Assembly (NCBI GenBank): GCA_021324975.1
Contig: JAJPIA010000063.1
Location: 1-64,000, forward strand
DNA length: 64,000 bases
From: Bacillota bacterium
Lineage (GTDB): Bacteria > Sysuimicrobiota > Sysuimicrobiia > Sysuimicrobiales > Segetimicrobiaceae
Reading direction: 5' to 3'
Shown piece after piece: positions 5,046 through 29,629 of the stretch; position 1 is the stretch's first letter; every line of letters starts with the position of its first letter. A program made the translations under genes and the position numbers. The notes beneath the pieces were generated by a model. It saw only the letters and a list, made by a program, of their open reading frames with translations. It was not told where the DNA came from and ran no database searches.

Positions 5046-5809
5046 TAGCCCGCTCCCGACGGCTCGGCGACAGCGTCACCGGCCTGCCGTACCGCCGCCA
5101 CGATCTGTGGGTAACAGCTGCACCGGCAGAGGTTGCCGCTCATCCGCTCGCGGATCTCGGGCTCGCTCAACATTACCGCAGGCGCCGTGACGTCGTCGGT
5201 CGCCGCGCTCGGCTCGCCCCGGCGGATCTCATCCAGCAGCGCGAGCGCCGACATGATTTGGCCGGACGTGCAGTATCCGCACTGGAACGCATCATGCTCG
5301 ATAAACGCGGCCTGCACAGGATGCAACTGCCCGTCCGGTGCGATGCCCTCGATCGTGGTGATCTCGTCGGCGGTGTGCATGACGGCCAGCGTCATGCAGG
5401 CGAGAATGCGTCTTCCGTTGACGTGCACGGTGCAGGCGCCGCACTCACCGCGGTCGCAGCCTTTCTTCGTACCGGTGAGCCCGATTCGCTCCCGCAACGT
5501 GTCCAGCAGCGTGGCCCTCGGGTCGGCGATCACGTCGTGCCGGCGCCCGTTGACGGTAAGAGTGATGCGGGCCGGCTCCGGACCCAGCGCCTCTGCGCGG
5601 TGGAACGAGGTGCCGGGCGGGCGGCTCCCCGCGCCGCCCATTCCGCCGGCGCCGGCCGGCGGCCGCGCATTCCAAGAGGCTGCACCCGCAAGGAAGTCGT
5701 GTCGGCTCAATGCAACCCCCTCATCGCGTCGGTCAGGCGTCACCGAGGTCGTGGTAAGCAGCGCGGGCGAGAGGTTCCCGCCACCAGTATAGTCGCTCCC
5801 GGCGCTCAT
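5045..5809 (-). CDS. paoA: aldehyde oxidoreductase 2Fe-2S subunit (PaoA-like)
   Basis: The two [2Fe-2S] cluster domains are clear: a plant-type ferredoxin motif (GCDRGECGACTVHVNG), then the four-helix domain with QCGYCTSGQ and NLCRCSCYP. The sequence AVMHTADEITTIEG and the rest of the core closely follow E. coli PaoA. PaoA carries a Tat signal; the equivalent here is LSRHDFLAGAA, where the second Arg is His. Two starts are possible: ATG 5809, overlapping the dnaJ-like stop by 4 nt, gives 254 aa; TTG 5710, preceded by GAGGGGG at good spacing, gives 221 aa beginning exactly at the Tat-like segment. I kept the longer ORF but consider TTG 5710 credible. Whether the enzyme is exported is open. Confidence 0.88.
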   Translation of the reverse strand: MSAGSDYTGGGNLSPALLTTTSVTPDRRDEGVALSRHDFLAGAASWNARPPAGAGGMGGAGSRPPGTSFHRAEALGPEPARITLTVNGRRHDVIADPRATLLDTLRERIGLTGTKKGCDRGECGACTVHVNGRRILACMTLAVMHTADEITTIEGIAPDGQLHPVQAAFIEHDAFQCGYCTSGQIMSALALLDEIRRGEPSAATDDVTAPAVMLSEPEIRERMSGNLCRCSCYPQIVAAVRQAGDAVAEPSGAG

Positions 5810-6240
5810 CGTCTCCCGAGCGCGGCCACCTGGCTCCAGATCCTGAGGAGCACGCCGACCATGACGACGAGGTCGGCCAGGCTCAAGACGGGGTTCTCAA
5901 GCAGTCTCGCGAGCATCATGCCCGCCGTGACGACCGCCGCGGACAGCACGATCTTTTGGAGAAACGCGGCCACGTGGTCGACCCCGGCGCCGCCGGCCGG
6001 CGGCGCTCCCTGCGGTGACCGCCGCGCACGTGCGCGATCGTAGGCGCCGCGGAGATCCGCATCGCCCAGGACGGTGTACGCCTCGTTGATGAGCTTCGCC
6101 CGCTCCTCGTCGCCGCCGAGATCGGGATGCGCACCCATCTCGCCCATGAGCGTGCGGTATGCCTTTTTGACCATGTCCTGCGAGGCGCGCGGGTGCACCT
6201 GCAGAACCTCATAGTAGTCGATCTCCGGTCGAAATCGCAT
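5806..6240 (-). CDS. J-domain (DnaJ-like) membrane protein
   Basis: A 144-residue protein with an N-terminal J domain: DYYEVLQVHPRAS, helix II KKAYRTLMGE, the diagnostic HPD at residues 38-40, then INEAYTVLGDADLRGAYDRAR. The J domain should stimulate an Hsp70 (DnaK). No Gly/Phe or zinc domain follows. Instead, residues of about 90-140 form hydrophobic stretches (IVLSAAVVTAGMMLARLL and LSLADLVVMVGVLLRIW), so it is probably anchored in the membrane and recruits Hsp70 there. It overlaps paoA by 4 nt and is the first gene of that operon, which hints at, but does not prove, a role in maturing or exporting the oxidoreductase. Confidence 0.82.
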   Translation of the reverse strand: MRFRPEIDYYEVLQVHPRASQDMVKKAYRTLMGEMGAHPDLGGDEERAKLINEAYTVLGDADLRGAYDRARARRSPQGAPPAGGAGVDHVAAFLQKIVLSAAVVTAGMMLARLLENPVLSLADLVVMVGVLLRIWSQVAALGRR

Positions 6241-6252
6241 CGCCGCGCCACG

Positions 6253-6261
6253 ATTGTAGCA
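6253..6261 (-). promoter_or_regulatory. extended -10 promoter for the dnaJ-like/pao operon
   Basis: On the minus strand TGCTACAAT reads as an extended -10 element (TG-N-TACAAT). It ends 12 nt before the ATG at 6240, so the 5' leader would be only about 6 nt. No convincing -35 hexamer lies 17 nt upstream. The same 9-mer recurs at 15432-15440. Confidence 0.5.
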
Positions 6262-6282
6262 CGCGCCGCGTCGCGACCCGCC

Positions 6283-6597
6283 CTACTCTCTCGGCCCCTG
6301 CCCGCCCGCCTCGGGATCGTCCTCCAGCCCGACGGAAAACGACCGCTCGAGCAACGATTGCGGGTACGCCCGGAACGCCAGATGCGTGTTGGTGCGGACG
6401 ATCCCCGGGATCTCGACCATGGCGCCGGTCACCGTGTCCGCGAGATCCTGATAATCCTTGAGGCGCAGCACGGCGATGATGTCCCACTCGCCGGTCACGG
6501 AGTAGACCTCGGCCACGCCGGGCACCTCAGCAAGGCGGCGCGCAACCTCCTGCGTGCGGCGGCGCTCAGTCTGGATCATGACAAAGGCCGTGAACAT
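6283..6597 (-). CDS. stand-alone Lrp/AsnC ligand-binding (RAM) domain protein
   Basis: A 104-residue protein that matches only the C-terminal alpha/beta sandwich of Lrp/AsnC regulators (AFVMIQTERRRTQEVARRL, VYSVTGEWDIIAVL, IVRTNTHLAFR). The helix-turn-helix domain is absent, so it is a 'demi-Lrp' that binds a small effector, often an amino acid, as an oligomer. ATG 6597 is preceded by GGGGAGGAG with 6-nt spacing; the longer track ORF to 6714 has no homologous extra part. A possible role as effector sensor or hetero-oligomer partner of a full Lrp is family knowledge, not shown here. Confidence 0.8.
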   Translation of the reverse strand: MFTAFVMIQTERRRTQEVARRLAEVPGVAEVYSVTGEWDIIAVLRLKDYQDLADTVTGAMVEIPGIVRTNTHLAFRAYPQSLLERSFSVGLEDDPEAGGQGPRE

Positions 6598-6664
6598 CGT
6601 TGCTCCTCCCCGCCCCCCACCGCGCCGATTCCGCCCGTCGGCCGACGCGCAGCGACCCGGCGCG

Positions 6665-8422
6665 TCATTCGGCGCGCCCGGTGCGGTGCTCCTGTGGAGA
6701 CCGCGGCGTCGCACACGGCGTTTCGCGCGGGCCGCCGACGCGCGGGAAACCGGGCACGGCGAGCGACGCCGCGACGGCCTCGTACTCCAAGACCGCCCGA
6801 CGTTCTGCCTCGGCGGACCAGCCCAACTCCTCGGCCATCAGCCTGGCCACGCGGGGTGCGACCTCCACGCCATGCCGCGGCAACACGTGCGCGAGGCGCG
6901 TGCGCCGGAGCAGCACATCCGCTACGGTCAACGCCATCTCGTCCCGGACCGCGGCGACGACCTCCACGGCAACGTGCGGCTGACCCGGCACGAGCGGCTC
7001 GGCGAGCGCACGACGGTCGGCGATCATCTCGAAGAGACCGCGGCACCGCGCCCCGTAGGCCCGGATGAGATGCACCATCGTACGCCGCGGCAGGCCCGCC
7101 CGCCGCCCCTCGTGCCAAACCTCCCCGCCCTCGGCGGGTGGCGGAGCGCCGTCCAAAGGGATGTCTCGGGTCGGAGAGGCGGTACCGGCGCGTTGCCCCA
7201 ACGCCTCGTTCACGGCGTCTTCGGCCATCTTGCGGTAGCTCGTCAACTTGCCGCCGACGATGGTCACGAGGCCCGGCCCGGCCCGGACGACCTCGTGACG
7301 GCGCGATATGCGCGCGCTGGATCGGTCGTTCGATGCGCTGACCAGCGGCCGCAGCCCGGCGTATACACCGAGCACGTCGTCACGGCGGAGCGGTGCGCCC
7401 AGAAACCTGGACGCGTGGTCGAGCAGGTAGTCCACCTCGCCGCCGTCGACCGCGGGGACGTCCGGCGGACCCTCCCATGGCGTGTCTGTCGTTCCGATCA
7501 ACACCGCGCCCTGCCAGGGCACGACAAACGCCAGGCGGCCGTCGTCCGTCTCCGGCAGCACGAACGCCGCGCGTCCCATCGGCAGGCGCTCCGCGCGAAC
7601 GACGAGGTGAACGCCTTTGGCCCGGCGCAGGCGAAAGCCGGGGCGCGCGACCAGCCCGGCGACGGCGTCGGCCCAAACGCCCGTCGCGTTGACGATGACG
7701 CCGGCCCTGACGATGAGGCGGGCGCCCGTCACGCGGTCGGTCACCTTCGCCGCCGTCACCCGCCCCCGCTCGACGACGAACTCTTCGACCGGGGCGTAGT
7801 TGCATGCTACGGCCCCGCGCGAGACGGCCGTACGGAGTACCGTGATGGTCAGCCGCGCGTCGTCCGCGGCCGCGTCATAATAGAGGTAAGCCGACCGTAG
7901 CCCCCGGCGGCGCATCGGCGGGACGAGCAGGACCGCCGCATCCTCGCTGAGCCGGCGATGCCGCGGCAGCCCGCAGGCAGGACCGGCGGCGGCAAGGCGA
8001 TCGTACACCCACAAACCGCATCGGAGCCCAAGCGGCAACCACGGCCGGAGCAGGCTCGGGAGCCGAAGCCCGAGCGGCCGCCTGGCTCCCTCGTACAGCG
8101 GCAGCACGAACGGCAAGGGACGGACGAGGTGCGGCGCATTGCGCAGGAGACGCCCCCGCTCAACAAGGTCTTCGCGGACCAGGCCGATATCGAGCATGGG
8201 AAGATACCGGAGGCCGCCGTGCACGAGCTTGGTCGACCGGCTGCTGGTGCCCTCGGCGAAGTCGGACCGTTCGACCAGGGCCACCGACAGCCCCCGCGCG
8301 GCGGCATCCAGCGCCACCCCGGCGCCGGTGATGCCGCCGCCGACCACGAGCACGTCGAAGGTGCGGTCGCCGAGCGCCGCGAGCCGCTCCGTGCGCGACG
8401 CGGGCGACGGCGCCGGCCGCAC
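6665..8422 (-). CDS. glpD: aerobic glycerol-3-phosphate dehydrogenase
   Basis: This 585-residue FAD enzyme oxidises sn-glycerol 3-phosphate to dihydroxyacetone phosphate and feeds electrons to quinone at the membrane. The N-terminal dinucleotide-binding motif is FDVLVVGGGITGAG with the VERSDFAEGTSSRSTKLVHGGLRYL segment characteristic of GlpD. The C-terminal part has GGKLTSYRKMAEDAV and the all-helical DAO_C domain up to about residue 550. A short low-complexity tail follows. The GTG start at 8422 is preceded by GAGG and lies 1 nt after the stop of the DUF488 gene. No glycerol kinase or facilitator is in the window, so the substrate may come from lipid turnover. Confidence 0.92.
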   Translation of the reverse strand: MRPAPSPASRTERLAALGDRTFDVLVVGGGITGAGVALDAAARGLSVALVERSDFAEGTSSRSTKLVHGGLRYLPMLDIGLVREDLVERGRLLRNAPHLVRPLPFVLPLYEGARRPLGLRLPSLLRPWLPLGLRCGLWVYDRLAAAGPACGLPRHRRLSEDAAVLLVPPMRRRGLRSAYLYYDAAADDARLTITVLRTAVSRGAVACNYAPVEEFVVERGRVTAAKVTDRVTGARLIVRAGVIVNATGVWADAVAGLVARPGFRLRRAKGVHLVVRAERLPMGRAAFVLPETDDGRLAFVVPWQGAVLIGTTDTPWEGPPDVPAVDGGEVDYLLDHASRFLGAPLRRDDVLGVYAGLRPLVSASNDRSSARISRRHEVVRAGPGLVTIVGGKLTSYRKMAEDAVNEALGQRAGTASPTRDIPLDGAPPPAEGGEVWHEGRRAGLPRRTMVHLIRAYGARCRGLFEMIADRRALAEPLVPGQPHVAVEVVAAVRDEMALTVADVLLRRTRLAHVLPRHGVEVAPRVARLMAEELGWSAEAERRAVLEYEAVAASLAVPGFPRVGGPRETPCATPRSPQEHRTGRAE

Positions 8423-8423
8423 G

Positions 8424-8954
8424 CTACCTCGACCGTCTCGGCGGCCGTCTCGAAGGGGACCGCCGGCCGGGGGTCCGTGCGCGCGCGGGCCGGGCTGAGC
8501 CGCGCGAAGCGCGCGAACGTCTCTTCGGCGGAGCGCCGCCCGCCGCGGGCGCGTCCGTAACCGAGGTCAGTTCCAGGAGCGCCTCCCGGACCAGGACCGC
8601 CTGGTTGTGCTCGGGATCGCGTGCGCCGTAGACGAGCGTGAGCCGCCCGCCGCGGGCGTACGCGCGCAGCTCTCGAAGCAACCCCGTTTTCGACGCGAGC
8701 TCCAGGTGATAGCGCCGCCGGAACTCATCCCATCGCGCCGGATCATGCCCGAACCACTTCCGCAGCCCCGGACTGGGGCCGAGGTCGGGCAGCCACGCCA
8801 CGATGCGGAGGCGGTCTCTGCTGACGCCGCGCGGCCACAGCCGATCAACGAGGACCCGCGGCCCGTCGTCGGCGGCCGGCGGATCGTAGGCCCGCCGCGC
8901 CGTGATCACTAACGGTGTCTGGCGCGATCCTGCCATGGCGTTCACACTCCACAT
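8424..8954 (-). CDS. DUF488 family protein with basic C-terminal tail
   Basis: The first about 125 residues match DUF488/YeaO proteins: RVLVDRLWPRGVSRDRL, WLPDLGPSPGLRKWFGHDP and LTLVYGARDPEHNQA. Family function is unknown. Normal members are about 115-125 aa; this one continues for about 45 residues that are almost only Arg, Ser, Pro, Ala and Gly (SRASRGSARPARARTPGRR). The tail may be a disordered nucleic-acid-binding extension, or simply erosion of the original stop codon. Start choice is between ATG 8954 and ATG 8936. The gene is divergent from the importer operon at 9127, and its upstream region is shared with that operon's leader. Confidence 0.7.
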   Translation of the reverse strand: MWSVNAMAGSRQTPLVITARRAYDPPAADDGPRVLVDRLWPRGVSRDRLRIVAWLPDLGPSPGLRKWFGHDPARWDEFRRRYHLELASKTGLLRELRAYARGGRLTLVYGARDPEHNQAVLVREALLELTSVTDAPAAGGAPPKRRSRASRGSARPARARTPGRRSPSRRPPRRSR

Positions 8955-8957
8955 CTT

Positions 8958-9126
8958 CGGTTCTCCGGGGCGGGAACCGCTCCTGTGGTTCCCCGTTGAG
9001 ATCTGCGCCATTCGTTACACCGGGATTACCGGGGGAAGAGGGTTCTCCTGCGCGGCCATGGAACCGGGGAGCGACTTTCGCGCCGGGCTTTTGGCGCGAC
9101 CACGCAAATGAGGAGGGGAACCGATC
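8958..9126 (+). promoter_or_regulatory. candidate structured 5' leader (riboswitch-like) of the ABC/PuuA-like operon
   Basis: The 170 nt before the ATG at 9127 hold alternating complementary segments: GGTTC at 8959, GGGAACC at 8972, GGTTCCCC at 8987, GGGTTCTCC at 9040, GGAACC at 9060 and GGGGAACC at 9115. GGGAACC/GGTTCCC (8972-8978 with 8987-8993) makes a 7-bp hairpin with an 8-nt loop. The same GGTTCCCC is an exact complement of 9115-9122, which includes part of the Shine-Dalgarno (GGAGGGG). A separate 7-bp hairpin (TCGCGCC/GGCGCGA, 9078-9099) stands just before the Shine-Dalgarno. The mutually exclusive pairings are what an RNA switch would show. I do not recognise a known riboswitch class. 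Confidence 0.4.
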
Positions 9127-10290
9127 ATGCGAGAGAGTCTCGCGGAAGCTCGGCACGCGCGCGCGCTCGCGCGGGTGACGCGCCGGCGATTTCTCGGCTG
9201 GGCCGGCGCCGCCGGACTCGGGTTCGCGGCCGGATCGCGGCTCGCCGGGCGTGCCGACGCCGCGATGCCGGCAGGCGGACCGATGTCCATCGCGGACCTC
9301 ACGGCGGGCGCCAAGAAAGAGGGCCTGCAGCTACACGCCTACGGGATGCCGCCCGACTGGGCGAACTGGGAGGGCATCTTCGCGGGCTTCAAGACGAAGT
9401 ATAGCGTGACCTCGATCTACAAGCCCGAGGGGGACCTCAGCTCCGCTCAGGAACTGCAGAAGTTCGAGGCGGAAAAGGCGCACCCGATCGGTGACATCGG
9501 CGACGTCGGATTTCAGTGGGGTCCGGTCGCGGTCCAGCGCGGCATCGTACAGGCGTACAAGACCGCGCACTGGAGCGCGATCGCGGACAATCTCAAAGAC
9601 CCCAACGGGTACTGGGTCGCCGAGTACTCCGGCGTGATGTCGTTTGCGGTAAATACGGCCCGCGTGAAGAAGTCACCGCAGACCTGGCATGACCTGCTCG
9701 ACCCCGCCTTCAAGAACATGGTGACCATCGATCAGGATCCGCGTCAGGCGTTCGACGCGTTTGCCGCCGTGGTGTCGGCCGCGTACGCGAACGGCGGCAG
9801 CATCACGAACGTCGAGCCCGGCATCGAGTACTTCGCCAAGCTCAAAAAGGCCGGCAACTTCATTCCCGTCAAGGCGGAGCTGGCCTCCATGCAGACGGGA
9901 GAAGCGGGCGTCGCGATCCGCTGGACGTTTCTCAACCTCGCCGACCGCGACACCGTCAAGCAGAAGGGCGGCCCCGCATACGAAGTGGTGATTCCGTCAG
10001 ACGGGTCCGTCGCTTCGCCGTACGTCTCCGTGATCAACAAATGGGCGCCGCACCCGAACACCGCTAAACTCTTCCAGGAGTACTTGTTCAGCGACGAGGG
10101 CCAGCTCGGCCTGCTCCAGGGGTACGCGGTGCCGGCGCGGATGAAGCAGCTCACGGTGCCGGCCGATCTTGCAGCGAAACTGCCGCCGAGCTCGGCGTTC
10201 TCCAAGGTCGTCTACCTCACCGACCTCAAGGCGCTCGCCGCGGCGCAAGCGGTCGTCAAGGATCAGTGGGGACCAAAGGTCATGGGATAG
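9127..10290 (+). CDS. ABC transporter extracellular substrate-binding protein (PotD/AfuA-like), Tat-type signal
   Basis: A 387-residue solute-binding protein. Residues about 18-40 form a Tat signal (TRRRFLGWAGAAGLGFAAG) ending near AGRADAAM. The mature part has features of the family-1/PotD-type binding proteins (PDWANWEGIFAGFKTKY, GVMSFAVNTARVKKSPQTW, SPYVSVINKWAPHPNTAKLF). The ATG at 9127 follows GAGGAGGGG with 6-9 nt spacing. It is the first gene of an operon with two permeases, an ATPase, a PuuA-like gamma-glutamyl ligase and an SDR, so a small amine, polyamine or amino-acid-like substrate is the best inference. Confidence 0.85.
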   Translation: MRESLAEARHARALARVTRRRFLGWAGAAGLGFAAGSRLAGRADAAMPAGGPMSIADLTAGAKKEGLQLHAYGMPPDWANWEGIFAGFKTKYSVTSIYKPEGDLSSAQELQKFEAEKAHPIGDIGDVGFQWGPVAVQRGIVQAYKTAHWSAIADNLKDPNGYWVAEYSGVMSFAVNTARVKKSPQTWHDLLDPAFKNMVTIDQDPRQAFDAFAAVVSAAYANGGSITNVEPGIEYFAKLKKAGNFIPVKAELASMQTGEAGVAIRWTFLNLADRDTVKQKGGPAYEVVIPSDGSVASPYVSVINKWAPHPNTAKLFQEYLFSDEGQLGLLQGYAVPARMKQLTVPADLAAKLPPSSAFSKVVYLTDLKALAAAQAVVKDQWGPKVMG

Positions 10291-10392
10291 GCCCGGGCCG
10301 TGGGGCGGGCCTGACCTCGGGCCCGTGCCCGCGGTCGATCTCGAGGTGAGCGCCGCTCCCCGACCTCGGCGGGGCTTCTCCCCGGGGCGCCG

Positions 10393-11295
10393 ATGAACAC
10401 CGTTGCAATCCGCCGTCAGGAGACGCACGCCATGCGCCGGGGGCGGGCCGCGCACCTATTGGGCACGGCGGCGGGACTCGCGCCGTTTGCCGTGTTCGTC
10501 ACGCTGTTCCTGATCCTCCCCGTCGCCCAGATGCTCGCCGGCGCCTTTGCGTTGCCGGGCGGCGGCGCGGGGCTGGACAACTTCCGGCGCGCGCTCGCCC
10601 CGCAGTATCTCGAGGCCTTTCGGACGAGCGTGGCCCTGTCCGTCGAGACCGCGCTCGTGGGCGCGGTCGCCGGCACGGCGGTCGCGTACGCCATCGTGCA
10701 GGGCGAACTGCGCCACCGGCAGACCCTGGTCATCACGTTCTGCACGGTGACGAGCAACTTCGCTGGCGTTCCGCTCGCCTTCGCGTTCATCACGACACTT
10801 GGGGTCGTGGGATGGGTGACCGTCGCGTTCCAAGCGGTCTTTCACGTGAGCCTGTACAATGACCTCGGCTTCACCATCTACTCGTATCTCGGGCTCGTCG
10901 TAGTGTACACGTACTTTCAGCTGCCGCTCATGGTGTTGCTCGCGGTGCCGGCCTGCGCCGCGCTGCGACGCGAGTGGCAGGAAGCCGCCCGGAACCTCGG
11001 CGCCGGCGCCTGGCGGTTCTGGCGGGACGTGGGCATCCCGGTGCTCGCGCCGCCGCTGGTCGGCGCCGCCGCCTTGCTGTTCGCCAACGCGTTCGGCGCG
11101 TACGCGACCGCGTACAGCCTGAGCAGCGGCGCGATCAACCTGGTGCCGCTCCGCATCGGCACGCTGATCAATGGGGACGTCTCGTTCGACGCCGGGCTCG
11201 CCAACGCCCTCGGCCTAGGGATGACCGTGGTCATCGCCGCCGCCATCCTCGTCTACCAGGCCGCAAACCGGCGCGCGCGGCGGTGGATGCGGTGA
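10393..11295 (+). CDS. ABC transporter permease (PotB/CysU-type)
   Basis: A 300-residue integral membrane protein with about six hydrophobic helices, starting with LGTAAGLAPFAVFVTLFLILPVAQMLAGAF and ending with LGMTVVIAAAILVYQAANRR. The cytoplasmic EAA-type loop that docks the ATPase reads EAARNLGAGAWRFWRDVGIPVLAP. ATG 10393 is used here; an in-frame ATG at 10432 (MRRGRAAH) is a possible shorter start. The preceding 100 nt contain only GC-rich sequence with small inverted repeats and no gene. Its stop overlaps the GTG of the next permease (GTGA). Confidence 0.87.
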   Translation: MNTVAIRRQETHAMRRGRAAHLLGTAAGLAPFAVFVTLFLILPVAQMLAGAFALPGGGAGLDNFRRALAPQYLEAFRTSVALSVETALVGAVAGTAVAYAIVQGELRHRQTLVITFCTVTSNFAGVPLAFAFITTLGVVGWVTVAFQAVFHVSLYNDLGFTIYSYLGLVVVYTYFQLPLMVLLAVPACAALRREWQEAARNLGAGAWRFWRDVGIPVLAPPLVGAAALLFANAFGAYATAYSLSSGAINLVPLRIGTLINGDVSFDAGLANALGLGMTVVIAAAILVYQAANRRARRWMR

Positions 11296-12065
11296 TCCAG
11301 CGGTCCGTCGTCGCGCTGTTCCTCCTGTACCTCCTCCTACCGCTCAGCGGCATCCTCGGGTTCACGCTGCTCGACGGCGGCCGCCTCACGCTCGCGCACT
11401 ACCGCCAGTCGCTCGGGGATGCCGAGTTTGCCGCTTACATGGCACACTCGCTCGTCCTCGCGGCGGGGACGGTCGTGCTCGGCGTGTCGCTGATGACGTT
11501 CACGACATTTTGGGTGCACATGCGGGCGCGCTCGCTCAAGCCGCTGCTCGAGCTGACGGCGTTCCTCCCGTTCGTCGTGCCCGCCGTGACGCTGGCGCTC
11601 GGGCTGATCCAGCTCTACTCGCGTCCGCCGCTGCCGCTCACCGGGACGGCCACGCTGCTCGTGCTGGCGTACACGGTGCTCACGCTGCCGTTCGCGTACC
11701 GGGCGGTTGAAAACGGGCTCGCGGCCATCGACAGCCGGACGCTGAGCGAGGCGGCGCAGAGCCTGGGCGCGGGGTGGTGGCGGCGGTTCCTCACGGTGAT
11801 CGTGCCCAATCTGTGGCCGGGCATCACGAGCGCTGCGCTCCTCGGGTTCGCGCTCGTCATGGGGGAGTTTACGCTCGCCCTGTTCCTCGTGGGCTCGGCG
11901 TATGAGACCTACCCGCTGTACCTCAATCAGGTTTGGCGCACCGACCCCAAGTACGGCGCGGCCCTGGCCGTGCTGTCGTTCCTCATCACCTGGGCGTCGT
12001 CGGTCGCCATCCTGTGGACCAGCCGCCGCGCGCCCGGCCAGATGCAGGGCGCGGCGCTGCGATAG
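11292..12065 (+). CDS. ABC transporter permease (PotC/CysW-type)
   Basis: The second permease of the importer, 257 residues, with six predicted helices from SVVALFLLYLLLPLSGILGFTLL onward and an EAA loop (EAAQSLGAGWWRRFLTVIVPNL). The track ORF starts at 10974 because the frame is open; the real start is the GTG at 11292, which overlaps the stop of the upstream permease. It would pair with the 10393 permease to form the membrane channel. Substrate is unknown beyond the operon context. Confidence 0.87.
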   Translation: MIQRSVVALFLLYLLLPLSGILGFTLLDGGRLTLAHYRQSLGDAEFAAYMAHSLVLAAGTVVLGVSLMTFTTFWVHMRARSLKPLLELTAFLPFVVPAVTLALGLIQLYSRPPLPLTGTATLLVLAYTVLTLPFAYRAVENGLAAIDSRTLSEAAQSLGAGWWRRFLTVIVPNLWPGITSAALLGFALVMGEFTLALFLVGSAYETYPLYLNQVWRTDPKYGAALAVLSFLITWASSVAILWTSRRAPGQMQGAALR

Positions 12066-12067
12066 CC

Positions 12068-13159
12068 ATGGCCTTCCTCGTGCTGGAAGGTCTCAGCAAG
12101 ACGTTTGGGCACACCGCGGCGCTGTCGGACGTCACGCTCTCCGTGGAGCGCGGCGAGCTCGTGTCGCTCCTCGGCCCAAGCGGGTGCGGCAAGACGACCA
12201 CGCTCCGCATCGTCGCCGGCTTCGAAACGCCCGACCGCGGACGCGTGCTCCTCGACGGCCGGGATCTTACCGGCGTTCCCCCGGAACGGCGCGGCTTCGG
12301 CATGGTGTTTCAGCACTACAGTCTCTTCCCGAACATGACGGCGGCCCAGAACATCGGCTACGGTCTTAGGGTCGCCCGCCGGCCGGCGCGGGAAATCCGG
12401 CGCCGCGTCGGCGAGTTGCTGGAACTCATCGGGCTTCTCGACGCGGGCGAGCGGTATCCGCACCAGCTCTCGGGCGGCATGCAGCAGCGGGTCGCCCTCG
12501 CCCGCGCGCTCGCGATCGAGCCGCGGATCCTGCTGCTGGACGAACCGCTCTCCGCGCTGGACGCCAAGGTGCGCGTGACGCTGCGGAACGAGATCCGCCG
12601 GATCCAAACGCGCCTCGGGATCACCGCGCTGTACGTGACGCACGATCAGGAGGAAGCCCTTTCGCTCTCCGACCGCGTGGTCGTCATGTCGCGCGGCTGC
12701 ATCGAGCAGGTCGGGCCTCCCGAAGAGGTGTACGGCGAGCCTAGGACCGAATTTACCGCGAGCTTCATCGGCTCGATGAACAGGCTCGCCGGCGTCGCCG
12801 GAGCGGACGGGACGCTCGCCTATCGCGGGCAGATCCTACGGCTGCCGCCGGACGCGGCGGTTCCCGCCGGCCGGGCCGCCACGCTCGTCGTGCGGCCCGA
12901 AGCGATCACGCTGACGGTGGACGGCGGCCCACCGCCTTCCGGACGCGCGAACGTGCTCGCGGGCACGCTCGTGACACGGACGTTTCTCGGCCCCGTCGTC
13001 CGCCTCATCGTCGACGTGGACGGCGAGTACCTCAGCGTGGACGTGCCGGGAGCACAACGCCGCGCCTATCCGCAGGGCGGGCGCGTCTGGCTGTCGTTCG
13101 ATCCGGGGGCCGCCATCGTGATGGTCCCCAGCGCCGCAATGGAGGACGGTGGCACATGA
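12068..13159 (+). CDS. ABC transporter ATP-binding protein (PotA/FbpC-type)
   Basis: A 363-residue ATPase. Walker A is GPSGCGKTTT, the Q-loop region is GMVFQHYSLFPNM, the signature is LSGGMQQRVALA, Walker B is ILLLDEPLSALD and the switch His is in VTHDQEEAL. The C-terminal about 120 residues form a TOBE/MOP-like regulatory domain, usual for polyamine, iron and sugar importers. ATG 12068 lies 2 nt after the permease stop. The gene overlaps the following glutamine-synthetase-family gene by 4 nt (ATGA), so transport and the ligase are produced together. Confidence 0.92.
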   Translation: MAFLVLEGLSKTFGHTAALSDVTLSVERGELVSLLGPSGCGKTTTLRIVAGFETPDRGRVLLDGRDLTGVPPERRGFGMVFQHYSLFPNMTAAQNIGYGLRVARRPAREIRRRVGELLELIGLLDAGERYPHQLSGGMQQRVALARALAIEPRILLLDEPLSALDAKVRVTLRNEIRRIQTRLGITALYVTHDQEEALSLSDRVVVMSRGCIEQVGPPEEVYGEPRTEFTASFIGSMNRLAGVAGADGTLAYRGQILRLPPDAAVPAGRAATLVVRPEAITLTVDGGPPPSGRANVLAGTLVTRTFLGPVVRLIVDVDGEYLSVDVPGAQRRAYPQGGRVWLSFDPGAAIVMVPSAAMEDGGT

Positions 13160-14535
13160 CGCACTCCGCGTCCGGCCGGTTCTCGCTCGACGATCTCGCA
13201 CGGGAGGTGGCCCAGGGCGGCATCGATACCGTGATCGCCGCAATGGTAGACATGCAGGGACGGCTCATGGGGAAGCGCGTCACCGGCGAGTTTTTCCTCG
13301 ATGAGGTCGCCGGGGACGGCGCGCACGCCTGCAGCTACCTCCTCGCCTGCGACGTCGAGATGGAACCGCTCCCCGGGTACCGCCTTACGAGCTGGAGCAC
13401 GGGCTATCACGACGTCCGGCTCCGGCCCGATCTCTCCACGCTCCGCCGGATCCCGTGGCTCGAGCGGACGGCGCTCGTGCTGTGCGATGTCTGCGACGAT
13501 GCGGGCGCGCCCATCCCCGAATCGCCCCGCCAGCTCCTGCAGGCGCAGGTCGCGCGCGCCGCGCAGGCCGGCCTGCGTCCCATGATGGCGTCGGAGCTCG
13601 AGTTCTACGTCTTCCGGGAGACCTACGAGCGCGCGCGGGAGAAGCACTACCACGACCTGGTGCCCTACGGACAGTACATCGAGGACTACCACATTCTCCA
13701 GGGGACCAAGGAGGAGTGGCTGATCCGTCAGATCCGCAACCACGCCACGGGTGCCGGCGTGCCGGTCGAGTTCAGCAAGGGGGAATGGGGCCCGGGCCAG
13801 CACGAGATCAATCTGCGTTATACGCACGCCGTCGAAATGGCGGACCGCCACACGCTGCTAAAGCAGGCGGCCAAGGAGATCGCGGCGGCCAATAGCGTGG
13901 CCATCACGTTCATGGCGAAGTGGCGCGCGGATCTCGCCGGTTCGTCCTGCCACGTGCACAGCAGCCTGTGGGACCGCGAGGGGACGCGAAACCTGTTCCA
14001 CGAGGAGGGTGCGGACGGCGGCATGTCGCGGTTGTTCCGCCACTACTTGGGCGGTCAGATCGAGGCGGCCCGCCAGCTCGCGTATTTCTTTGCACCGTAC
14101 GTCAACTCGTACAAGCGGTACCTCGCCGGCACCTTTGCGCCGGTGTTCGCGGTGTGGAGCCGCGACAACCGCACCTGCGGCTTTCGGGTCGTCGGCGACG
14201 GCGGCGCTCTCCGCGTCGAGAATCGCATCCCCGGCGCCGACGTCAATCCCTATCTCGCGTTCGCCGCAACGATCGCCGCGGGGCTGTGGGGCATCGAGCA
14301 CCGCGTGGAGCCGCCGCCGAGCTTCGAGGGCGACGCCTACCACGCACACGGACTCCTGCGCGTCCCCGGGACGCTGCGCGAGGCGCTGGACGAGCTCGCG
14401 CGTAGCGAGATCGCGCGCGCGGCGTTCGGCGACCGCGTGGTGGAGCACTACCTTCACACCGGGCTTCTGGAGCAGCGGGCCTATGACCGCGCGGTCACGT
14501 GCTGGGAGCTTGCGCGCAATTTCGAGCGCATTTAG
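13156..14535 (+). CDS. glutamine synthetase-family gamma-glutamyl ligase (PuuA-like)
   Basis: A 459-residue member of the glutamine synthetase superfamily. It has the beta-grasp-like N-terminal domain (AAMVDMQGRLMGKRV) and catalytic-domain motifs: ASELEFYVF, EWGPGQHEINLRY, SSCHVHSSLWD (the H-x-H-S-S loop) and NRIPGADVNPYLAFA near the C terminus. It lacks the Tyr-adenylylation loop of GlnA-I and groups by eye with gamma-glutamylputrescine synthetase (PuuA)-like enzymes that couple glutamate to an amine using ATP. The 4-nt overlap with the ABC ATPase strongly suggests that it acts on the imported solute. A true nitrogen-assimilating role is less likely in this context. Confidence 0.82.
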   Translation: MTHSASGRFSLDDLAREVAQGGIDTVIAAMVDMQGRLMGKRVTGEFFLDEVAGDGAHACSYLLACDVEMEPLPGYRLTSWSTGYHDVRLRPDLSTLRRIPWLERTALVLCDVCDDAGAPIPESPRQLLQAQVARAAQAGLRPMMASELEFYVFRETYERAREKHYHDLVPYGQYIEDYHILQGTKEEWLIRQIRNHATGAGVPVEFSKGEWGPGQHEINLRYTHAVEMADRHTLLKQAAKEIAAANSVAITFMAKWRADLAGSSCHVHSSLWDREGTRNLFHEEGADGGMSRLFRHYLGGQIEAARQLAYFFAPYVNSYKRYLAGTFAPVFAVWSRDNRTCGFRVVGDGGALRVENRIPGADVNPYLAFAATIAAGLWGIEHRVEPPPSFEGDAYHAHGLLRVPGTLREALDELARSEIARAAFGDRVVEHYLHTGLLEQRAYDRAVTCWELARNFERI

Positions 14536-14603
14536 TGCCTCATCTGCTATGTGCGACAAGGGTAGACGTCCGACGCCTTTGACATTTGCGTGGGAGGTCT
14601 TGC

Positions 14604-15371
14604 ATGAGGCTGCGTGACAAAGTCGCCCTGATCACCGGCGCGGGCGGCAGCATGGGCCGGCTGGGGGCGAGTGCGTTCGCCCGCGAGGGCGCGCGGATCG
14701 TCGCCGTCGATGTCGAGGCCGGCGCGGCGGAAGCCACTGCAGCCGCGATCACGCGTGACGGAGGACGGGCGATCGCGGTGCGGGCGGACGTCGCCATCGA
14801 GGCGCAGGTCAAGGAGGCCGTGCGCCGCGGGGTGGGCGAGTTCGGCCGCCTCGATGTGCTCTACAACAACGCCGGCATCTTCCCCGAACGCGACGGGTCC
14901 GTGGTCGACATCGACGAGCCGGTGTGGGATCAGGTCATGGCGGTCAACGTTAAAGGCATCTATTTTTGCTGCAAGCACGGCATCCCGGAGTTGCTGCGCG
15001 GGGGCGGGGGATCGATCATCAACGTCGCGTCCTTTGTCGCGCTCGTCGGGTGCACGGTGCCGCAGGACGCGTACACGGCGAGCAAGGGCGCCGTGATCGC
15101 GCTGACCAAGTCGCTCGCCGTACAGTTCGGCCCCAAGCAGATCCGGACGAACGCCATTGCGCCGGGCCCCATCGAAACGCCGCTGTTGACGTCGTGGCTG
15201 CTCAACAACCCCGAGGCCAAGCAACTGCGCCTCAACCGCATCCCGATGGGGCGCTTCGGCCGGCCGGACGACATCGTCAACCTGGCGCTCTACCTGGCAT
15301 CGGACGAATCCACGTGGGTGAACGGGAGCGTCATCGTCGCGGACGGCGGCATCACGTCAAATTACTTCTGA
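14604..15371 (+). CDS. short-chain dehydrogenase/reductase
   Basis: A 255-residue classical SDR. The cofactor motif is TGAGGSMG, the structural NNAG motif is present, the catalytic Tyr-Lys is in YTASKGA, and PGPIETPLL follows. An acidic residue after strand 2 (VAVDVEAG) favours NAD(H). ATG 14604 is preceded by GTGGGAGG at good spacing; the track start at 14586 is less likely. It lies 68 nt after the PuuA-like ligase and probably completes the pathway by oxidising an alcohol or amine-derived intermediate. The actual substrate is unknown. Confidence 0.87.
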   Translation: MRLRDKVALITGAGGSMGRLGASAFAREGARIVAVDVEAGAAEATAAAITRDGGRAIAVRADVAIEAQVKEAVRRGVGEFGRLDVLYNNAGIFPERDGSVVDIDEPVWDQVMAVNVKGIYFCCKHGIPELLRGGGGSIINVASFVALVGCTVPQDAYTASKGAVIALTKSLAVQFGPKQIRTNAIAPGPIETPLLTSWLLNNPEAKQLRLNRIPMGRFGRPDDIVNLALYLASDESTWVNGSVIVADGGITSNYF

Positions 15372-15431
15372 TCTGCCCGCGAGCCGGCCCAACTGAGAGT
15401 CGGCAGCATCGGTGCGCGGCGGCGCTTCGCA

Positions 15432-15440
15432 TGCTACAAT
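15432..15440 (+). promoter_or_regulatory. extended -10 promoter upstream of the GNAT gene
   Basis: TGCTACAAT is an extended -10 (TG-N-TACAAT), identical to the element at 6253-6261 on the other strand. No good -35 is seen. Transcription would begin near 15447, about 80 nt before the acetyltransferase ATG, and would include the hairpin at 15454-15485. Confidence 0.45.
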
Positions 15441-15453
15441 AACACCCGGGCCG

Positions 15454-15485
15454 GGACGCCCTCGGAGACAAATCCGGGGGCGTCC
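15454..15485 (+). terminator. strong hairpin (terminator or attenuator) between SDR and GNAT genes
   Basis: GGACGCCCTCGGA and TCCGGGGGCGTCC pair over 13 bp with one U:G wobble and a 6-nt loop GACAAA. The following bases (TGCTGTTTGTG) are only moderately T-rich. It sits just downstream of the TGCTACAAT promoter, so it could end the upstream operon, attenuate the GNAT transcript, or fold as part of a small leader RNA. Confidence 0.5.
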
Positions 15486-15528
15486 TGCTGTTTGTGCAAG
15501 GTGAACCGTCGTGTGGGAGGTGAGTTCG

Positions 15529-16038
15529 ATGCACGCCCGCTCCGCCACGCCGGACGACGCGGCCGCCATCGCCGCGATCTACAATCAGGGCATCGAGGAC
15601 CGCGTCGCGACGTTCGAGACGCGGGCGCGCACGCCGCAGGACGTGGCGGCCTGGTTCGACGGCCGGCATCCCATCGTCGTCGTCGAGGATGGGGGCACCG
15701 CAATCGCGTTTGCGTCCACGTCGACGTACCGGCCCCGGGAATGCTACGCTGGGATCGCCGAGTTCTCCGTGTACGTTGCGCGGGGGGCGCGTGGCCGCGG
15801 CGCCGGTCGCGCCGCGATGCTGGCGCTGATCGACGCGGCCGAGCGCGCGGGGCTGTGGAAGCTCGTGTCGCGTGTGTTCCCGGAGAATACCGCCAGCCTC
15901 GCGCTGTTGCGCAGCGTCGGCTTTCGCGAGGTGGGAAGGTACGAAAAGCACGCCCGGCTCGACGGCGTGTGGAAGGACGTCGTGATCGTGGAGTGCCTGA
16001 TCCCCGCGAACCTCGCGCGGGACGCGCGCTCCGCCTAG
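15529..16038 (+). CDS. GNAT N-acetyltransferase (phosphinothricin/arsinothricin acetyltransferase-like)
   Basis: A 169-residue GNAT enzyme that acetylates an amino group with acetyl-CoA. The start RSATPDDAAAIAAIYNQGIEDR, the middle YAGIAEFSVYVARGARGRG with the R-G-x-G-A/R CoA loop, and FPENTASLALLRSVGFREVG are typical of the Pat/ArsN1 family, which acetylates glutamate-analogue antibiotics. ATG 15529 is preceded by GGGAGGTG; the GTG at 15511 is too far upstream of the conserved start. The close likeness suggests self-protection or amino-acid detoxification, but substrate is not proven. It ends 28 nt from the convergent propeller gene. Confidence 0.82.
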   Translation: MHARSATPDDAAAIAAIYNQGIEDRVATFETRARTPQDVAAWFDGRHPIVVVEDGGTAIAFASTSTYRPRECYAGIAEFSVYVARGARGRGAGRAAMLALIDAAERAGLWKLVSRVFPENTASLALLRSVGFREVGRYEKHARLDGVWKDVVIVECLIPANLARDARSA

Positions 16039-28587: not shown

Positions 28588-29499
28588 ATGCAACGACACG
28601 GTTGGCGGCGTCGCTGCCTCGCGGCGGCCGTCGTCGTCGGGCTCGTCCTGGTCCCGGCCGCCGCCGGGCCGCGCACCGCCGCGGACGCCGCGGCCATGGC
28701 GCATCTCGTGGTCGGCGGCAAGCTCGACACGGAGGCGCAGTTGCTCACCAAGATGTACGTGCTCCTGTTGCGTCACGCCGGCTTCGATGTCACCGAGAAG
28801 GCGAAGCTCGGCACGAACGACATCGTGTTCAGCGCGATTACGAGCGGCCAGATCGACCTCTATCCCGAGTTTACGGCGACCGGGCTCGCCCGCCTCGGGC
28901 TCAAGACCACGCACGACGATCGCCACGACTACGCCGCCGTCAAATCCGGCTACGAAAAACGGTACCACATCACCTGGCTCGACATGGCGCCGCTCAACGA
29001 TACCTACGGCATCTGCTCCACGCAGGCGCGGGCGGGCCAGCTCCACGCCACGAAGGTGTCCGAGCTGGCGTCGGCGGCCTCATCGCTCACGGTTGCAACC
29101 CCGCCGGACGGCAAGACGGATCCCAACGTGCTGCCCGGGCTCAAGGGCACGTACGGTTTCACGTTCGGCAAGGTGACCGTCCTCGACGAAGCGCTGACCT
29201 TCGCGGCGGTTCAGCAGGGCCGGGCCGACGTCAACGTGTGCTACACCACGAACGCCTTGATCCCCAAGAACCACTTCGTCCTGCTCGACGATGACCACCA
29301 CCTGTTCCCCATCTACCACCCGGCGCCGATCGTCCGCGACGCCTCGCTGCAAAAAGCGCCGGGGATCGCCGCCGCGCTGAACGGCCTCGCTCCGAAGCTG
29401 ACAACCACCGTGAGCCAGCAGCTCCAGCTGGAGGTCGTCAACGGCACGTCCGTCACGCAGGCTGCGACGGATTGGTTGAAAAGCGTGGGGCTCCTGTAA
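28588..29499 (+). CDS. quaternary-amine ABC transporter substrate-binding protein (OpuCC/OsmF-like)
   Basis: A 303-residue binding protein with a signal peptide (RRRCLAAAVVVGLVLVPAAAG). The mature part shows OpuAC/OsmF features: VVGGKLDTEAQLLTKMYVLLLRHAGFDV, SGQIDLYPEFTATGLARL, WLDMAPLNDTYGIC and FAAVQQGRADVNVCYTTNALIP. ATG 28588 follows AAAGGAGGGG, one of the strongest ribosome sites here. Substrate is likely glycine betaine, choline or carnitine, or a related osmolyte. A class V aminotransferase follows after a hairpin. Confidence 0.88.
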   Translation: MQRHGWRRRCLAAAVVVGLVLVPAAAGPRTAADAAAMAHLVVGGKLDTEAQLLTKMYVLLLRHAGFDVTEKAKLGTNDIVFSAITSGQIDLYPEFTATGLARLGLKTTHDDRHDYAAVKSGYEKRYHITWLDMAPLNDTYGICSTQARAGQLHATKVSELASAASSLTVATPPDGKTDPNVLPGLKGTYGFTFGKVTVLDEALTFAAVQQGRADVNVCYTTNALIPKNHFVLLDDDHHLFPIYHPAPIVRDASLQKAPGIAAALNGLAPKLTTTVSQQLQLEVVNGTSVTQAATDWLKSVGLL

Positions 29500-29514
29500 C
29501 CCGCGCGTATCGTC

Positions 29515-29554
29515 GAGCCGGGCCCGGGCCTGACGCCTCGCCCGGGCCCGGCTC
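29515..29554 (+). terminator. GC-rich hairpin after the binding-protein gene
   Basis: GAGCCGGGCCCGGGC pairs perfectly over 15 bp with GCCCGGGCCCGGCTC across a 10-nt loop. No T-run follows. It probably ends or attenuates the OpuC-like transcript before the aminotransferase gene. Confidence 0.65.
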
Positions 29555-29629
29555 AAACGGTCGAAGGAGGCGGTCTGCCCCTCACCGAAGCCGCGAGGTA
29601 CCGCAGTATCGAATCGCGGGAGGCGTCGC

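Follow-up and report, generated by a model that had tools for sequence, protein, structure and literature searches.

The upstream region of an importer and ligase operon as a candidate divergent control region limited to two sister species

The leader of the ABC importer operon studied here is best read as an ordinary, lineage-limited divergent control region, shared by the operon and the DUF488 gene transcribed away from it, a reading to which we give a probability of about one half. What is observed in its favour is the geometry of the locus, the pattern in which it is conserved and the failure to find any known or recurring RNA there. The window (the complete stretch of 64,000 nucleotides that was analysed) had come to attention through a preliminary description in which alternating GGTTC- and GAACC-type segments of this leader were proposed to form a new translational riboswitch, and the structures on which that proposal was built are considered below together with the remaining explanations.

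Divergent layout and conservation

The DUF488 and solute-binding protein (PBP) genes are arranged head to head, with a Shine-Dalgarno (SD) sequence on each side and a conserved block in between (Table 1). A short head-to-head intergenic stretch, a conserved block, half-site-like repeats and an SD on either side are what the region has in common with divergent bacterial promoter/operator regions, although no regulator, operator consensus or start site was identified in it. The sole orthologous leader among the genomes searched was found in a sister species of the same genus (Bacillota bacterium isolate Centralia_MAG_47, L032), where the PBP is 95% and the leader region 78% identical and synteny spans positions 5808-14282. 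As the start and SD of the divergent DUF488 gene are conserved in this species, both promoters must fit into the 190 bp, and as the DUF488 SD shares the region with the operon leader, the operon mRNA may not include the 5' segments. The best conserved block, 9021-9075, is probably a promoter/operator or else the core of a leader.

Table 1. Features of the divergent region and of the adjoining genes in the window.
Feature	Position	Strand	Remarks
DUF488 gene, divergent	8424-8936	-	Pfam PF22752/PF04343; ATG at 8936
SD of DUF488 gene, GGAG	8947-8950	-	left border of the region; kept in the sister species
Divergent intergenic region, 190 bp, between DUF488 (-) and transporter operon (+)	8937-9126	.	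from ORFs and sister synteny
P1 5' strand, CGGTTCTCC (CGGTTCCCC in the sister; U-G to C-G)	8958-8966	+	candidate SD-masking stem
GGGAACC/GGTTCCC hairpin of the preliminary description	8972-8993	+	ensemble probability about 0, not favoured
Most conserved block, with GGTTCTCC (9041) and GGAACC (9060)	9021-9075	.	9027-9056 identical; 0.90-1.0 in 20-column windows
Hairpin TCGCGCCGG-GCTT-TTGGCGCGA, 9 bp	9078-9099	+	retained in the sister, which has three substitutions and an insertion in the loop
SD region GGAGGGGAACCG; P1 3' strand is 9115-9123	9111-9123	+	
Solute-binding protein (PBP), Tat-type, SBP_bac_6	9127-10290	+	
ABC permease 1, BPD_transp_1	10393-11295	+	
ABC permease 2, BPD_transp_1	11289-12065	+	
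ABC ATPase with TOBE_2 domain	12068-13159	+	
Glutamine-synthetase-fold ligase	13156-14535	+	PF00120; type III GS and GGputSyn models below cut-off
SDR oxidoreductase	14586-15371	+	
GNAT acetyltransferase, ArsN1 family A	15511-16038	+	NF040503, 219.9 bits (cut-off 170)

On the divergent-region reading, the promoters of both genes would sit within the 190 bp, and 9021-9075 would most likely be the operon's core promoter/operator. The CGGTTCYCC-like repeats would be at most half-sites for a DNA-binding regulator, or a coincidence in G+C-rich DNA. We infer both the promoter position and the binding of a protein in this region. A transcript starting inside or after the block would lack the segments at 8959-9041, in which case no riboswitch could form. 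The control region perhaps has a start site tucked into an RNA stem. If the conserved block is the promoter, most segments fall outside the transcript, which is what the preliminary description itself had named as refuting its switch. In favour of a divergent control region, the block and four of the six segments are conserved, against 50-60% identity to the sister at 8977-9026. Against it, a scan of the region for the σ70 consensus gave no promoter-like site (promoters of this G+C-rich lineage are not thereby excluded), neither a regulator nor an operator was identified, and the clustering of 8-mer half-sites, with P = 0.015 versus shuffles, is yet matched by 17% of real tiles and so not significant. 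No intrinsic terminator was found in the region. An upstream ORF starting at 9058 has 17 codons and a stop in the window, but in the sister its frame continues into the gene with no stop, and it is thus not a conserved uORF.

No convincing third species emerged when the 43 genomes of the order were searched with covariance models: that of the entire leader retrieved only the window and sister loci, that of its 3' part gave no convincing further member, and two weak R1 matches (E 0.03-0.07) were absent with the full-leader model. Homologues of the PBP elsewhere in the order (at most 46% identity) have unrelated leaders, as have those of about 50% identity in cyanobacteria, Paenibacillus and others. 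Upstream of one distant PBP homologue (L004), a perfect 16-base palindrome, TCCTGGAATTCCAGGA, lies about 85 to 70 bases before the gene and is perhaps an operator, while in another family of the order three loci (L007, L009 and L011) share a motif upstream of the PBP homologue, TTGAAC ... TATTCC, with promoter-like spacing near the start codon.

Most of the family genomes that were examined carry the ligase-SDR-GNAT cassette (13156-16038), conserved at 72-84% identity but mostly without the ABC importer, and no matching leader was found with the ligase orthologues across the family. The leader is not a conserved partner of the cassette genes, since the family's other genera have them outside this operon context. 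In four genus-level relatives (L085-L088), the frame just upstream of the ligase resembles, by eye, a LysR-type regulator. The acetyltransferase of the window cassette passes the curated cut-off for ArsN1a (arsinothricin resistance). The labels of amine importer and gamma-glutamyl ligase given in the preliminary description are plausible, but these substrates are not established, because every specific NCBIfam equivalog model scored below its cut-off with the importer and ligase proteins.

Predicted pairing of the Shine-Dalgarno in two species

The main rival, which we consider possible but rather doubtful, is a lineage-specific structured 5' leader in which a stem, P1, closes a multibranch domain holding the hairpin 9078-9099 and hides the SD, so that translation would be lowered, or conditioned by temperature, protein binding or the kinetics of translation and transcription, with no metabolite aptamer involved. 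P1 (8958-8966 with 9115-9123) has a predicted probability of 0.99 in the window and 0.98 in the sister, and the hairpin one of 0.91 and 0.95, respectively. Between the two species, P1 and the hairpin differ by four substitutions, all of which retain pairing by G-U/G-C exchange that is valid on the + strand only, and the 5' strand of P1 keeps eight of its nine bases within a poorly conserved stretch. Sequestration of the SD by a conserved upstream segment is thus predicted in both species for 8958-8966 with 9115-9123; the preliminary description had proposed masking by a GGTTC-type segment, which would hold for this pairing, albeit not for the segment that it named. A single further copy of the hairpin sequence TCGCGCCGGGCTNTTGGCGCGA (9078-9099) lies between convergent ORFs in one other species of the genus (L056, approximately 1504-1525).

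Folded singly, both leaders are ordinary when compared with shuffles (z -0.96 for the window, 0.02 for the sister). A consensus fold of the two species was judged against column-shuffled and substitution-relocated alignments and 246 control windows, taken from about 29 kb that had been aligned. On the + strand, the joint fold of the natural interval 8939-9129 reached z -3.3 and -2.8; 0.8% and 2.4% of the control windows did as well, but not one of the 36 most divergent windows, and the joint fold of the - strand was unremarkable. The interval of the preliminary description, 8958-9126, gave z -4.3 and -3.9, values which are inflated by the placing of its ends at complementary segments. Among the controls, window 29395-29584 was the strongest; it holds a 15-bp hairpin just past a stop codon and served as a built-in positive control. 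This hairpin (29517-29554, + strand, GAGCCGGGCCCGGGC...GCCCGGGCCCGGCTC) is G+C-rich, begins 17 nt past the stop of ORF 28588-29499, has a fold z of -3.17 and gave a stronger structure signal in the two species than any other control; it probably belongs to the end of the gene, and a T run is lacking.

The joint-fold signal of the leader depends on the alignment and comes from one species pair: with blastn gap placement z drops to -0.26 and -0.79, and other pairwise alignments give values between -1.5 and -3.7. Once P1 and the hairpin had been fixed, the remaining structure, including consensus helices P2 and P3, was no better than in shuffles (z -0.87), and the count of compensatory, double-sided pairs was not significant with two homologues (P 0.09-0.14). 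P1 can also exist only if transcription begins no later than 8958, and the promoter would then lie over the start codon and SD of the DUF488 gene. A signal confined to the + strand is, on the other hand, not predicted by an explanation at the DNA level, and counts against the divergent control region. The folding results suggest that the SD may pair with 8958-8966 in the mRNA, provided that the transcript starts early enough; P1 pairing and the joint fold support a possible occlusion of the SD, but no switching by a ligand.

The GGTTC/GAACC segments and the proposed switch

All six segments are located where they had been described: GGTTC is found at 8959, 8987 and 9041 and GAACC at 8974, 9061 and 9118, with GGGAACC at 8972, GGTTCCC(C) at 8987, GGTTCTCC at 9041, and GGGGAACC at 9115 overlapping the SD. 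They form the densest cluster of that 5-mer pair in the window, and a count of six did not occur in any of 1000 dinucleotide shuffles. The motif was, however, picked post hoc: six copies of some 5-mer pair are found in 11% of shuffles and 36% of real 169-nt tiles, a perfect 7-bp hairpin in 23% and 35%, and 8 nt complementary to the SD end in 4.7% and 8.3%. Given these chance rates and the choice of the motif after the fact, the arrangement is real but just mildly unusual for DNA of 70% G+C. The genome has three occurrences of GGTTCYCC...GGAACC, two of them at the leader; a dispersed repeat was considered and rejected, with neither the GGTTC-type 15-mer nor the 9078-9099 hairpin forming a repeat family in the genus.

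With such frequencies, and with two of the six segments lost as motifs in the sister, the segments might have no function beyond promoter and SD and reflect G+C-rich coincidence and the shared ancestry of two close species. We consider this unlikely, as it leaves the conserved 5' strand of P1 and a joint fold better than the controls to be accounted for.

The helices that had been named individually fare differently as sequence and as structure. The complementarity of 8972 and 8987 is an exact 7 bp, and in the sister six of the seven pairs can still form, two of them via double changes (MAFFT alignment); likewise, the 8-nt complement of GGTTCCCC and GGGGAACC (8987/9115) is exact, but three of its eight pairs are broken in the sister. 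Both helices have a probability of about 0 in the predicted ensemble and were rejected as main structures. At 9041, the third segment is a conserved GGTTCYCC copy which is able to pair with the SD, but with a probability of 0.00. As for mutually exclusive helices acting as a translational switch, two conserved competing states, one of them freeing the SD, were not seen in the two species: no conserved SD-releasing alternative was found, and since the conserved alternatives (8959 and 9041) both mask the SD, they are not an on/off pair.

The idea of a new translational control RNA confined to this genus, whose long-range stem would close a multibranch domain and hide the SD of the importer/ligase operon until opened by a metabolite, temperature or protein signal, is in our view quite improbable.

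Comparison with known regulatory RNAs

In agreement with the preliminary description, the leader matches no known riboswitch class: none of 4227 Rfam families matches at gathering score, and cmscan at E up to 10 gave just two chance matches, to unrelated families. Glutamine and spermidine riboswitches were compared because of the ligase and the importer. The two types of glutamine riboswitch, type 1 (glnA RNA) and type 2 (Downstream-peptide), are leaders of genes linked to the control of glutamine synthetase and have been described as restricted to cyanobacteria (PMC6316151); the leader studied here gives no cmscan match to them at E up to 10. The spermidine riboswitch has a SAM-I-like aptamer and acts by transcription termination (PMC10853860). 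It senses a polyamine, the kind of ligand that the preliminary description had proposed, whereas the leader has neither a SAM-I match nor a terminator.

With translational riboswitches and other SD-sequestering leaders, the region shares an upstream segment that is complementary to the SD and conserved in the sister, but it differs from them in having no conserved aptamer core, SD-releasing alternative or ligand evidence, and in being confined to two species. Riboswitch classes normally have a wider distribution than this. We therefore consider it very unlikely, and the least likely of the explanations, that the leader is a new metabolite riboswitch which responds to a substrate or product of the importer/ligase operon and toggles the SD between masked and free: the operon does import and modify a small molecule, and the SD can pair with either conserved GGTTCYCC copy, but both pairings mask it, that of 9041 has next to no predicted weight, no aptamer-like conserved core was identified, the leader was found in only two species of a single genus among the 43 genomes of the order, and no known class matches it.

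The case is mainly one for caution, as complementary repeats around an SD arise readily in DNA of 70% G+C, and the possibility of a divergent gene layout needs checking before any leader RNA is proposed. Should the SD-masking stem prove real and signal-responsive, an uncultured soil lineage would have in it a small element for the control of translation that is specific to the lineage.
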